This document shows, piece by piece, positions 19,425-23,325 of a DNA stretch of 23,355 nucleotides. Below the pieces are notes generated by a model. The model saw only the letters and a program-made list of their open reading frames with translations. It was not told where the DNA came from and did no database searches. The translations under genes were made by a program, and so were the position numbers. Position 1 is the stretch's first letter; the number at the start of each line of letters is the position of its first letter. The stretch comes from a virus, in IMG/VR virus record IMGVR_UViG_3300042516_001094, positions 1-23,355 of that record; one strand, 5' to 3'.

Positions 19425-20087
19425 TTATTTGCCCAGCACCCGCCAACGCCGCTCTCGCAGCGCCAACTCGTGCCGGGCGTGGTGTTCAGCCGCGCTGGGC
19501 GCGGAAGAAATTCGTTTAGCCGCCGAAACGCTGGCCGACAAAAACTTGGCTCCGGGGTCCGCCCCGATGGGAACGATGGAGATTTCAAACGGCCTCCACT
19601 TGCTCGCCAGCAGGTGTGGCCGCTTGACCGTCGAATCCGGCGCCTGGGTCATTTCAACGATCTGAACGCCCATCGACACGCTGGTAAGAATGCCGTCCTC
19701 GATGTCTTGCCAGACCGGCGCAACATCTTCCCGGTCGCTGAACCGCAGCGTCGCCTCGTAACCGCGACGGGTGCGCCGTGGGCTTTCCACCACGCCAAGG
19801 ACATACTCGACTTCTTCCTTCTGGTGGCCGTCGAGAACAGGCTTGCCCGCCAACTGCGTCAGGTCGCCGCCGTCCATGGCAAACGACAGGTCGTAGAGGT
19901 CGCCGGACCACATGTCGACGCGCTCGACCTTCGCGCCGCTATAAAACAGCACGTCACGCTTGCGCTTGCCGGGAAGTTCGACCTTATCGCCCTCCTCCGG
20001 CATTTGGAGCAACTCGGCAGGCCGCAGCGAAGACAGGAGCGATTGCGGCGTCTGCAGCAATAGCTGCTGTGCTTGGTCTACATTCAT
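19425..20087 (-). CDS. prohead protease (HK97 gp4-like, S78 family)
   Basis: A 220-residue serine protease that trims the N-terminal scaffold (delta) domain from the capsid protein during head maturation. Visible family features are VLDGHQKEEV with the likely catalytic His88, ILTSVSMGVQIV with the likely catalytic Ser138, and KWRPFEISIVPIGADPGA with a probable third acidic residue (about Glu168). After about residue 180 there is an Ala/Ser/Arg-rich tail (APSAAEHHARHELALRER) without recognisable catalytic residues. Its start overlaps the portal stop as ATGA. Its TAA stop runs directly into the AAGGAG ribosome site of the capsid gene. Portal, protease, capsid is the standard HK97-type order. 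The residue assignments come from family pattern, not from an alignment. Confidence 0.9.
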   Translation of the reverse strand: MNVDQAQQLLLQTPQSLLSSLRPAELLQMPEEGDKVELPGKRKRDVLFYSGAKVERVDMWSGDLYDLSFAMDGGDLTQLAGKPVLDGHQKEEVEYVLGVVESPRRTRRGYEATLRFSDREDVAPVWQDIEDGILTSVSMGVQIVEMTQAPDSTVKRPHLLASKWRPFEISIVPIGADPGAKFLSASVSAAKRISSAPSAAEHHARHELALRERRWRVLGK

Positions 20088-21283
20088 TGCTGACCCCCTT
20101 GAAACGCTCCGGCCTGCGCGACCGGCACCATGGCACCCTGCACCAGATACAGCTCGCCACCGTCGTATGGGTTCATGTTCTCTTTGCTCCGGATCTCGTT
20201 AGCGTTCAGCGCGCCAATGTTCCGCATGGCCGAGTAGTAGCTGGCGCGACTGGCCGCGTCACCCCGCAGCAAGGCGTCCATGTTGAACTCGGCGTAATAG
20301 TTCGAGGCCTCGCGCGGGCCAAACAGTTGCAGGTTGATCCGCTTCTCAATTCGGGTCAGCCAGGGCCGGATAGTGTGCGTGGCAAAGTCGATGCCCTGGT
20401 GCTCGATGTTGTTGTTGGTGCTGCGCGTCAAGTCCTGGATCATGTGCGGCGGCACGCGGAAGATGGAGCAGATGTCGGCCTTCTGATACTGGCGCAACTC
20501 CAAAAACTGCATGTCGCGGTGGTTGATGGCGACGGTCTTAATTTCCGCGCCCTGCTCAAGCACGCCAATTTTCCCGGCGTTGCGAACGCCGCCGTAAGAC
20601 TCCATCAGCCACGTCTGCAGGTTCTTCCGCGCCTCGTTGCTCAACGCTTGCGGCACGGTCATGTAGGCGGGCGGGGTCGCGTTGTTCTTGAAGAAGTTGG
20701 CCCCGTACCCTTCGGCGTCTTGCGTCATGCTCAAGGCCTGCGCCATGTAGCCGACGGGCGAGTAGCCAGTCAAGCTGTCTTCGCCGTCGTAGCCCAAACC
20801 GGGGATGTGCAGGATGTCCGAGGCCGTGTACATGCTCTGCCCATAGTGGTAGACCATGACGCCGGTTTCCGGGTCGCGGAACACGCGCATGGACGACGGC
20901 GACAGCGGCGTAAGCTGCGTAACGTCGCCGCGCTGGTTGGTCTGGATCCGCGCGTAAAAGTTGCCAGACAGACACAGGCACTTCGCGGCCAACTCCCAAA
21001 ACTCAAACGCCGTCATGTCCGCATTCGGGGAGTCGTGCAGCAGGTAATACAGCGGGTGGTTGCGGTCCAGTTCGCGGCCATCTCGGCCACGCCGGTAGAT
21101 CCCTAGCGGCAGGCTGCCAATGGTCTCGGCAATTACGCGCACGCACGCCCAGACAGCAGTGATACGCATGGCCGACTCGCTCGACACAAAATACTTCGAA
21201 CCAGACACAGGCCGATACCAGAAGTCGTTATCTGGTGGCGGCGTTGCGCCGAGCTTGACCATGAGTCGCCCAAAAAGGTTCAT
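20084..21283 (-). CDS. portal protein (HK97 family)
   Basis: A 399-residue protein forming the dodecameric ring at one capsid vertex, through which DNA enters and to which the head-tail connector binds. Family signatures in order: SESAMRITAVWACVRVIAET (about 35-54), SLPLGIYRRG, HPLYYLLHDSPN, FEFWELAAKCLCLSGNFYA, then HIPGL and YSPVG. After these come the KADICSIFRVPPHMI stretch and the TRSTNNNIEHQGIDF segment that is highly characteristic of phage portals, and IRPWLTRIEKRINLQLF. The length is normal for the HK97 type (about 380-450). It starts after the dyad array, with AAGGA 11 bases upstream of the ATG, a long spacer that contains one repeat arm. It ends in an ATGA overlap with the prohead protease, so the two are translationally coupled. 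Confidence 0.95.
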   Translation of the reverse strand: MNLFGRLMVKLGATPPPDNDFWYRPVSGSKYFVSSESAMRITAVWACVRVIAETIGSLPLGIYRRGRDGRELDRNHPLYYLLHDSPNADMTAFEFWELAAKCLCLSGNFYARIQTNQRGDVTQLTPLSPSSMRVFRDPETGVMVYHYGQSMYTASDILHIPGLGYDGEDSLTGYSPVGYMAQALSMTQDAEGYGANFFKNNATPPAYMTVPQALSNEARKNLQTWLMESYGGVRNAGKIGVLEQGAEIKTVAINHRDMQFLELRQYQKADICSIFRVPPHMIQDLTRSTNNNIEHQGIDFATHTIRPWLTRIEKRINLQLFGPREASNYYAEFNMDALLRGDAASRASYYSAMRNIGALNANEIRSKENMNPYDGGELYLVQGAMVPVAQAGAFQGGQQ

Positions 21284-21286
21284 GCC

Positions 21287-21378
21287 GTATCACGTCCTTA
21301 CTGCATCGTGCTATCAGCGTAGCACAATTTTTTCGCAGCGTGATACCGCAGTAGCACGCAAGGCTTTTTTCGTGCTAC
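21287..21378. repeat. three tandem 32-bp dyad units between terL and portal
   Basis: Six copies of an 8-bp arm alternate in orientation. GTAKCACR-type arms begin at 21287 (GTATCACG), 21319 (GTAGCACA) and 21351 (GTAGCACG), exactly 32 bp apart. The inverse arms begin at 21307 (CGTGCTAT), 21339 (CGTGATAC) and 21371 (CGTGCTAC), also exactly 32 bp apart. Each 32-bp unit is therefore arm, 12-bp spacer, inverted arm, 4-bp linker. The third unit is a perfect inverted repeat and the others have one or two changes. Spacers differ in sequence while arms and spacing are kept. The array fills the intergenic gap: one end overlaps the terL stop codon and the other lies between the portal ribosome site (AAGGA, 21295-21299) and its ATG. 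It looks like a multi-site operator or a set of RNA hairpins. The function is not known. Confidence 0.85.
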
Positions 21379-22961
21379 CAGCCGAGAGTGACCGGCAGCA
21401 TGTCCTCGTATACGCTGCGCTCCTTCGGCTTGGCGCTGGTGCTGATTCCAGTTGCCATGACGCACGCGATGACTAGGTCGTTGCGGGTCGTTTCGCGATG
21501 GCGGTCTGGATGCACCGGCTTGATGTTGCCCGCCAAGTCGCTGGCGATCTCGCAGCATTCGATGTTCCATCGCAAAACCGGCGAGCCGTCGTGGACTAGC
21601 TGCCGCTCGTGGACTAGCTGCTCGAAGCGTTTGGCGGCTGGCGACATTGACACGTAACCCTGCCCGAACTCGACAACAGATATACCCGCGTCCTGTAGTT
21701 GCTGCGCCGTGTCGCGCGCCCCGTAACGGTCATAAGCAATGGCCTGGATGTTGTACTCTTCGGCCAGCTTCGTGATATGCGCCACCACGTACCGCCAGTC
21801 CACGGTGTTGCCGGGCATGGTCTCGATGTGGCCGCCCTGAGCCCACTGGACGTAAGGCACGCCGTCGGTTGCGGTCTTCTCGGCCAGCATCTTGCTTGGC
21901 AAGTAAGCCCAGGCCCGGTAGTAGACTTTGCCCTGATATGGCCAGCACAGTGCAAATGCGGTCAAGTCGCGCACAGCGGCAAGGTCCAGTCCGCCGTAGC
22001 ACGGCACGCCGGCCAGATCTGGGAACTCGTCAAAACACTGGTCCCAGTCGCGGAGCGGTATCCATGTCGTCGTGGCGCTCGTCCACTGGTTCAAGTACAA
22101 GCGCCGGAATGTGTTCTGCTTCTCGGGCCGGGCCAACGCCTGCCGAAACTCTTCTTGGTAGTCGCGGATATCATGCAGCACGCCGAGCGTCGGCAGGGCC
22201 ATCGGCCACAAGCTCTGGTCGGTCCAGTCGGCGTCGATAGGCACTTCGTAAATCAGGGGAAAGTAGCTTTCGTCCTGGATTTCGCCCGATGCCACGCGCT
22301 TGGCGTACTGATACTCTCGATAGCAGATGGATTCCTGGTTGCTGCCCGCAGTCGTGATCGTCACCCATAGCGGGTTGCGACGCGACTTTGATCCGGTGGT
22401 AAGCGCGTCGTAAAGCTCCTGCTCGGCAATGCCCCAGGCGTGCAATTCGTCAAAGACCACCAACGATGGGTTATAGCCGTGCTTCCCCGCGCCGTCGCTG
22501 CTCAGGGCGCGGATGATCGAGCCAGACTCGTTGTGCCGGATCAGCTTGCGAGACTCGGTGATCGTCACCAGCGGGAGCAGGTCCTCCGATGCGCGGATCA
22601 TGTCGGCGACGGCGTCGAAACAGATGCTCGCCTGGTCGCGGTCCTTCGCGGCCATATAAATCTCTTGCTTTTTTTCCTGACTCAGAAAAAACTCGGCCAC
22701 GACCAACGCGGCTACGGTTTGGGTTTTGGCTTGCTTGCGCCCCATCGACGCAAAGGCCTTCCGGTACAGGCGGCGACCGTCTGGCCGCTTCCAGCCGAGC
22801 AGGTTGGCGATCAGTTTCCTGCTGTGCGGCAGTAGCTCAAATGGCTCTGGACCGCCGGAGCGGGTGGCTTTGGTCAGCGTAAGGCCGCCGATGAGCGTCT
22901 CGGCCATTTGCACCGCGCTCAGGTCAAACCAGTTGCCGTTACTGGTGCTTTGCTTTGGCAA
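21375..22961 (-). CDS. terL: terminase large subunit (HK97-type, Terminase_1)
   Basis: The ATP-driven motor and nuclease that cuts the DNA concatemer and pumps it through the portal. With the TTG start at 22961 it has 528 residues. A Walker A-like loop GRKQAKT is at about 74-80, with Ala where the canonical Gly-Lys-Thr has Gly. Walker B SLVVFDELHAW is at about 166-176 and a coupling motif VTITTAG at about 199-205. The C-terminal nuclease domain shows acidic residues in GGLDLAAVRD, AYDRYGA and RNDLVIA. The reading frame is open to an ATG at 23045, but that would overlap the small terminase by about 107 nt. The TTG gives a 23-nt overlap, has AAGG nine bases upstream, and keeps the NWFDLSAVQ segment that the family normally carries. 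An ATG further in (before AETLIGG) would cut that segment. The exact start is uncertain; the identity is firm. Confidence 0.93.
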   Translation of the reverse strand: MPKQSTSNGNWFDLSAVQMAETLIGGLTLTKATRSGGPEPFELLPHSRKLIANLLGWKRPDGRRLYRKAFASMGRKQAKTQTVAALVVAEFFLSQEKKQEIYMAAKDRDQASICFDAVADMIRASEDLLPLVTITESRKLIRHNESGSIIRALSSDGAGKHGYNPSLVVFDELHAWGIAEQELYDALTTGSKSRRNPLWVTITTAGSNQESICYREYQYAKRVASGEIQDESYFPLIYEVPIDADWTDQSLWPMALPTLGVLHDIRDYQEEFRQALARPEKQNTFRRLYLNQWTSATTTWIPLRDWDQCFDEFPDLAGVPCYGGLDLAAVRDLTAFALCWPYQGKVYYRAWAYLPSKMLAEKTATDGVPYVQWAQGGHIETMPGNTVDWRYVVAHITKLAEEYNIQAIAYDRYGARDTAQQLQDAGISVVEFGQGYVSMSPAAKRFEQLVHERQLVHDGSPVLRWNIECCEIASDLAGNIKPVHPDRHRETTRNDLVIACVMATGISTSAKPKERSVYEDMLPVTLGW

Positions 22962-23325
22962 GTTCGAGCACCTTGGCAAGCGCCGTCTTGGCGACCGGCT
23001 TTTCGACGTCGCGGATCCCGGCGCGGCCACGGCTTCTGGGGCCAATGCACAGTTGGCCGCGCAATTCCTCCATTTGCCGCGTTAATGCAAGCCAGACGCG
23101 GTCGTCTGCTGCTGATTCGCGTCGATACGTCGCTGAGGCGAGGTCAGCGTACAGCGGGGCGTCGGCCTGGCGCATGGGAACGCCAGCGGCGCGATTGTCT
23201 TCGACGAGTTGCCGGAAGATGTCGACTTCTTCGGGGCACAGGTTGGCCGGCGGGGCGATGGATTCCTGGATGATCGGGCCCGGCTTCGGCGGCGGGTTTT
23301 TGGGTATCGGTCCTCGTAGTCCCAT
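22939..23325 (-). CDS. terS: terminase small subunit (P27-like)
   Basis: A 128-residue protein that would recognise phage DNA and load the large terminase. It begins MGLRGPIPKNPP, a basic Gly/Pro-rich start typical of the P27 family of small terminases. A predicted helical core follows (about residues 30-90, with CPEEVDIFRQLVEDN and YADLASATYRRE), then a basic Arg/Lys-rich tail (about 97-128). The length matches the family (roughly 100-160 residues). Its position directly ahead of the large terminase supports the call. The ATG at 23325 has only a weak TGGA-like ribosome site. It is the first gene of the block visible here, so a cos or pac site may lie just upstream, outside the window. No catalytic residues are expected in this family. 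Confidence 0.85.
   Translation of the reverse strand: MGLRGPIPKNPPPKPGPIIQESIAPPANLCPEEVDIFRQLVEDNRAAGVPMRQADAPLYADLASATYRRESAADDRVWLALTRQMEELRGQLCIGPRSRGRAGIRDVEKPVAKTALAKVLELAKAKHQ

Follow-up and report, generated by a model that had tools for sequence, protein, structure and literature searches.

What is an ordered set of inverted repeats doing between the genes for the large terminase subunit (terL) and the portal protein? These two genes are usually direct neighbours in the packaging module, and it is assumed that they are transcribed together. We analyzed a 23-kb viral record (23,355 nucleotides; hereafter, the window). Its structural genes are on the minus strand, and the array of repeats is therefore located downstream of terL and directly upstream of the portal gene. 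The terL gene occupies positions 21375 to 23045 of the minus strand (phrog_9, E 1.3e-147; its start may be at 22961), and its stop codon TAG is at 21375-21377. The portal gene, which is the first gene downstream of the array, occupies positions 20084 to 21283 of the same strand (phrog_12, E 4.7e-129) with its ATG at 21281-21283. A Shine-Dalgarno-like AAGGA, read from the sequence, is at 21295-21299 of the minus strand, 11 nt before this ATG. Elsewhere in the window, a minus-strand ORF of 154 aa (1700-2164) has a run of Pro-Glu repeats at its C-terminus (1700-1830).

The terL-portal gap contains six arms of 8 bp, each of which is GTAKCACG or its inverse, and the spacings between their centres are 20-12-20-12-20 bp. 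As written on the plus strand, the arms of one orientation are GTATCACG at 21287, GTAGCACA at 21319 and GTAGCACG at 21351, and those of the inverse orientation are CGTGCTAT at 21307, CGTGATAC at 21339 and CGTGCTAC at 21371. All six arms of the original prediction were thus located, and the period of 32 bp in each orientation was exact. The prediction had allowed up to two changes in an arm; all arms stayed within that limit, but the maximum observed was only one base, as compared with GTAGCACG/CGTGCTAC. On the coding (minus) strand the order is arm A (GTAGCACG, 21371-21378), arm B (CGTGCTAC, 21351-21358), arm C (GTATCACG, 21339-21346), arm D (TGTGCTAC, 21319-21326), arm E (ATAGCACG, 21307-21314) and arm F (CGTGATAC, 21287-21294). 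As had been predicted, the two ends of the array run into the neighbouring genes: arm A overlaps the terL stop codon, and arm F lies between AAGGA and the portal ATG. Arms D and E, the counterparts of arms b and c of the conserved core, form a 20-bp dyad with an N4 centre (21307-21326), and this unit is present in every array-bearing lineage. Arms B and C form a second such dyad (21339-21358), which is an extra unit when compared to the two-unit relatives described below.

This arrangement is non-random. In an open search of the region, in which all period pairs and both orientations were considered, the best array was the same six arms (20/12, inverted) with 4 mismatches in 48 positions. The minimum was 13 mismatches (mean, 16.9) in 300 dinucleotide shuffles and 9 in 140 tiles taken from the remainder of the window. 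When up to three mismatches were allowed, GTAKCACG-N12-CGTGMTAC was found at three places in the window, all of them in the array. The arm centres lie at 0, 20, 32, 52, 64 and 84 bp, which by arithmetic (10.5 bp per turn) corresponds to 0, 1.9, 3.05, 4.95, 6.1 and 8.0 helical turns.

A portal search gave 80 IMG/VR loci, and the DNA before the portal gene was read in 67 of them. The strict 32-bp form with three units was limited to the window and its near-copy L004. Most other relatives with 95-98% portal identity have two units, arranged as GTAGCACG-N12-CGTGATAC-N4-GTAGCACG-N12/13-TGTGATAC. The 85% group (L033 type) has four arms placed around TTGACA, and they read CGTGCTAC-AGTTGACAAAATT-CGTGCTAC-GCTG-(T/A)TAGCACG-N12-CGTGCTAC. 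The outermost array-bearing relative, L077 (78% portal identity), has one dyad, TTGACA-N3-CGTGATAC-GCTG-GTAGCACG. In L029/L030 (87%) and the 81-82% group there is no terL-portal gap, that is, terL abuts or overlaps the portal gene; arms were also absent from more distant relatives. When all IMG/VR contigs were scanned for the pattern, the array was confined to contigs of this clade of uncultured bacteriophages; it was located between terL and portal in every case and occurred once in each genome examined. Further copies of the motif in the array-bearing genomes were scattered single matches only. No similar DNA was found in named phages, and plasmids gave one weak match at chance level.

Relatives without arms would, according to the original prediction, argue for chance. 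We did find such relatives. Those that are closely related, however, are missing the gap altogether, and no lineage with a terL-portal gap is without arms; the gap and the array thus come together. On the portal tree, the array-bearing rows need two state changes; they occupy a single part of it, L029/L030 being the exception. A single gain and a single loss would account for this distribution, but the deep forks of the portal tree are weak. In L031 and L032, a two-unit gap is joined to an L033-type portal, and the terL side and the portal side of these loci are, as judged from this junction, recombined at or near the array.

We compared the arms with the spacers among the relatives. The same half-site, with spacings of 12 and 20-21 bp, is found in the window, the two-unit relatives and the 85% group; neighbouring half-sites are separated by steps of these sizes only, and the number of units varies. 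All array-bearing lineages share the 20-bp dyad CGTGMTAC-N4-DTAKCACG. The predicted 32-bp unit with a 28-bp N12 dyad is therefore not the common unit, and the pairing across N12 is secondary because L077 has no downstream arm. The arms are kept and the N12 spacers drift: a comparison of the window with L033 gave 2 differences in the 16 positions of the core arms and 9 in the 12 of the N12 spacer. The prediction that the sequence between the arms is not conserved accordingly holds for the N12 spacers, but less so for the N4 centre, which is GCTG in three of four lineages. This partial conservation could signal something beyond a simple dimer spacer. The clade-collapsed half-sites (26 arms) read S-G-T-A-K-C-A-C-G-A with TA and AC invariant, and the degenerate base is that at position 4; a degenerate position within the motif is seen in many protein-binding motifs. 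At one arm of the 85% group, GTGCTAC, GTACTAC or GTATCAC occurs at the same place, indicating that GT-N3-AC is kept and the centre changes.

The array is thus real and conserved. Its conservation in motif and spacing among diverging relatives suggests a landing strip for a DNA-binding protein that controls the structural genes. An array at terL-portal that is present or absent as a block in close relatives would mean that these phages are able to place their structural genes under separate control. The array provides a defined bait for fishing out the regulator, and the phages with and without the site provide a natural comparison.

An inverted repeat can also act in the message. The original prediction had raised the possibility that RNA hairpins hide the portal start, and hairpins in the terL-portal message might also protect or end the transcript. 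The coding strand of the window indeed folds strongly (-41.5 kcal/mol, z -3.6; the arms pair A-B, C-F and D-E), L039 folds nearly as well (z -3.3), and the last arm is placed between the Shine-Dalgarno sequence and the ATG. However, folding was not clearly better than that of shuffles in most relatives. In the two-unit relatives, z was -0.3 to -2.0, and because their arms read GTAGCAC in one orientation but GTGATAC in the opposite one, each pairing of arms contains a G-A mismatch. Among 13 distinct sequences, examined for 16 pairs of two alternative structures, there were 0 compensatory changes, and paired cells were not above shuffles. Pair 4 of the outer helix is unpaired in 10 of the 13, and two pairs of the inner helix are unpaired in 6-7 of the 13; the changes that break pairing coincide with the degenerate position of the DNA motif. 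Rfam gave no match for the array. The lack of compensatory changes, the broken pairs and the folds near the shuffle level indicate selection on a double-stranded motif. The strong RNA fold of the window is a consequence of any good inverted repeat, and we rejected RNA hairpins as the main explanation; that they are what the array is for seems improbable.

We lean towards reading the array as a cis-acting DNA site to which a dimeric, sequence-specific protein binds, that is, as a cooperative operator or activator site of the portal operon. The operator-like site of the original prediction gains support, at the level of sequence, from the retention of the repeated motif over the spacers across relatives, from steps of only 12 and 20-21 bp, which phase the half-sites close to whole helical turns, and from TTGACA beside the core in two lineages. 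The non-random form, the single site per genome, the restriction to this clade and the joint occurrence of gap and array are in its favour as well. From these features we infer protein binding, a dimer, cooperativity and an effect on transcription. The dimeric protein would recognize the half-site (S)GTAKCACG(A), and the basic unit would be the 20-bp palindrome CGTGMTAC-N4-RTAKCACG with half-sites 12 bp apart. One dimer may bind the core dyad, and further dimers may load onto the phased neighbours. The bound array would set the timing of transcription of the structural genes from portal onward, independently of terL, possibly through repression or activation of a promoter within the gap or by stopping transcripts that read through from terL.

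In the L033 type and in L077, TTGACA precedes the core by 3-5 bp, and because it adjoins the core in these two lineages, the simplest picture for them would be that the array controls a promoter from which the portal transcript starts. No convincing -10 element was seen in any lineage. In the two-unit lineages and the window, where no -35 is visible, the site may work by activation without a -35 or by a block to terL read-through. Several points count against the operator reading: TTGACA is not retained in the window or the two-unit relatives, a search of the window gap gave no sigma-70-like promoter, relatives with an 81-87% identical portal manage without the element, and no cognate protein was identified. 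In addition, further operators elsewhere in the genome are usual for a phage regulator; none were seen.

As for the protein, all four array-bearing genomes that extend past the holin gene have a small ORF like those of ribbon-helix-helix (RHH) proteins just after it. The matches were to RHH_1 in G004 (E 7.5e-8) and with E 3e-4 in G003, and the ORFs of G012/G015 were recognized by alignment only. On the contigs, ORFs of this kind lie directly after holin at L101:2741-2887, L115:5157-5300 and L108:6351-6518. Short palindromes are found just upstream of the ORF in G004 and G003 (GTAGTC-N5-GACTAC and GTATTCG-N3-CGAATAC), and in G012, GGTTAGAA-N12-TTCTAACC ends at the ATG of the ORF, with the 8-12-8 geometry of the array in different letters. 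Between the RHH gene and recT, L101:3280-3470 contains short repeats like GGCAAGGC/GGCTCGGC, and similar low-complexity stretches are present in G003 and G012/G015. L101:10039-12291 is one ORF whose N-terminal half matches DNA helicase and whose C-terminal half matches N6/N4 DNA methylase. RHH dimers pack along closely spaced sites, and the presence of the ORF in all four genomes would suit a late-gene regulator bound to tandem half-sites in the manner of Arc, MetJ or ParR. On the other hand, the array-minus G017-G020 also carry RHH-like ORFs in the same region (judged by eye), the G012-type ORF gave no match to Pfam RHH models, and the array motif was not found upstream of the RHH-like genes. 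Moreover, the likely DNA-contacting strand varies (TSVRLT in G004, VLIKLS in G012 and IAISLS in L168), whereas the arms are unchanged. We thus regard the RHH protein as an unlikely partner of the array.

HTH_3 matches were obtained in two array-minus records only; the array-plus records searched, several of which are incomplete, gave no match to HTH_3 or to tyrosine integrase. In the array-minus G020, an integrase domain at 37741-38271 (PF00589, E 5e-21) is broken by an in-frame TAG stop. No GntR-type regulator was found in 13 phage records, and the serine recombinase PF00239 was absent from 13 records, some of them incomplete. No cognate regulator was found among the phage candidates examined. 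The lack of matches to these four families in the array-plus records searched makes a host factor a serious possibility. Since RHH proteins occur in both array-plus and array-minus phages, and their contact residues vary over constant arms, binding of the array by a host factor is no less likely than binding by a phage protein. A host search found the portal in one genome contig only, that of a Chloroflexi MAG, with 39% identity. It is a rather doubtful idea, but one worth stating, that a modular operator, which phages would acquire or lose in one piece, might put the structural operon of these phages, which have no integrase hit, under a host regulator, so that capsid production would follow the state of the host.

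The operator reading has further to be weighed against a role in DNA processing, in which the array would be a terminase/pac, partition, resolvase or recombination site and not regulatory. Three imperfect 28-bp dyads in about 92 bp are superficially like a resolvase res site, GTAKCACG resembles a parS half-site, and the junction in L031/L032 is at or near the array. That junction can, however, be ordinary homologous recombination, and no serine recombinase to go with a res site was found in the 13 records noted above. The HNH-terS-terL order of G004 points to cos packaging close to terS and upstream of terL; furthermore, between one and three dyads are present, and close relatives do without the site. 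Such a role is distinctly unlikely. That the array arose by chance or by neutral tandem duplication and has no function would agree with the slippage-like shifts of unit number between relatives, but the arms are retained while the N12 spacers diverge and the shuffles speak for non-randomness, and we think this very unlikely.

Among the known systems, CIRCE is TTAGCACTC-N9-GAGTGCTAA, and both half-sites occur in HrcA papers. The array has the inverted repeat TAGCAC/GTGCTA in common with it at nearly the same spacing: arms c-d of L033 read TTAGCAC-N14-GTGCTAC, versus N13 between the same hexamers in CIRCE. However, the conserved TC/GA flanks and N9 are absent, and flanks and spacing differ in all arms, the latter being one base longer. 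The array alternates N4 with N12, its N4 dyads are without a CIRCE counterpart, T is allowed at position 4, and the GTATCAC arms do not match. A site related to CIRCE and bound by the host heat-shock repressor HrcA is thus very unlikely. The arms can also be read as GT-N3-AC, an operator of the GntR/FadR type. P2-type late promoters have TGT-N12-ACA dyads served by the Ogr/Delta activators; like these, the array has a dyad spaced by 12 bp in front of late genes, but its arms are longer and different, and its common unit is N4. Mycobacteriophage stoperators are more than 20 asymmetric 13-mers spread over the genome, with their orientation following transcription (PMC9283540). The array is like them in that a short, putatively protein-bound motif occupies a small intergenic gap, where it could keep transcription from entering the structural genes. 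In contrast to such dispersed asymmetric sites, it is one cluster per genome with half-sites that alternate in inverted pairs, and the predicted likeness to a stoperator fails on this point. A literature search gave no description of an inverted-repeat late promoter at terL-portal; the kind of operator is known, and the place and motif of this array are not described for terL-portal in the papers found. Cooperative multi-site operators include those of the lambda OL/OR type and the tandem sites of the Arc/MetJ/ParR type. The array differs from these in lying between terL and portal, not in an immunity or early region, and in having a motif without clear identity to any known operator, but it resembles them in consisting of several palindromic or half-site copies of a motif, helically phased, upstream of a gene.
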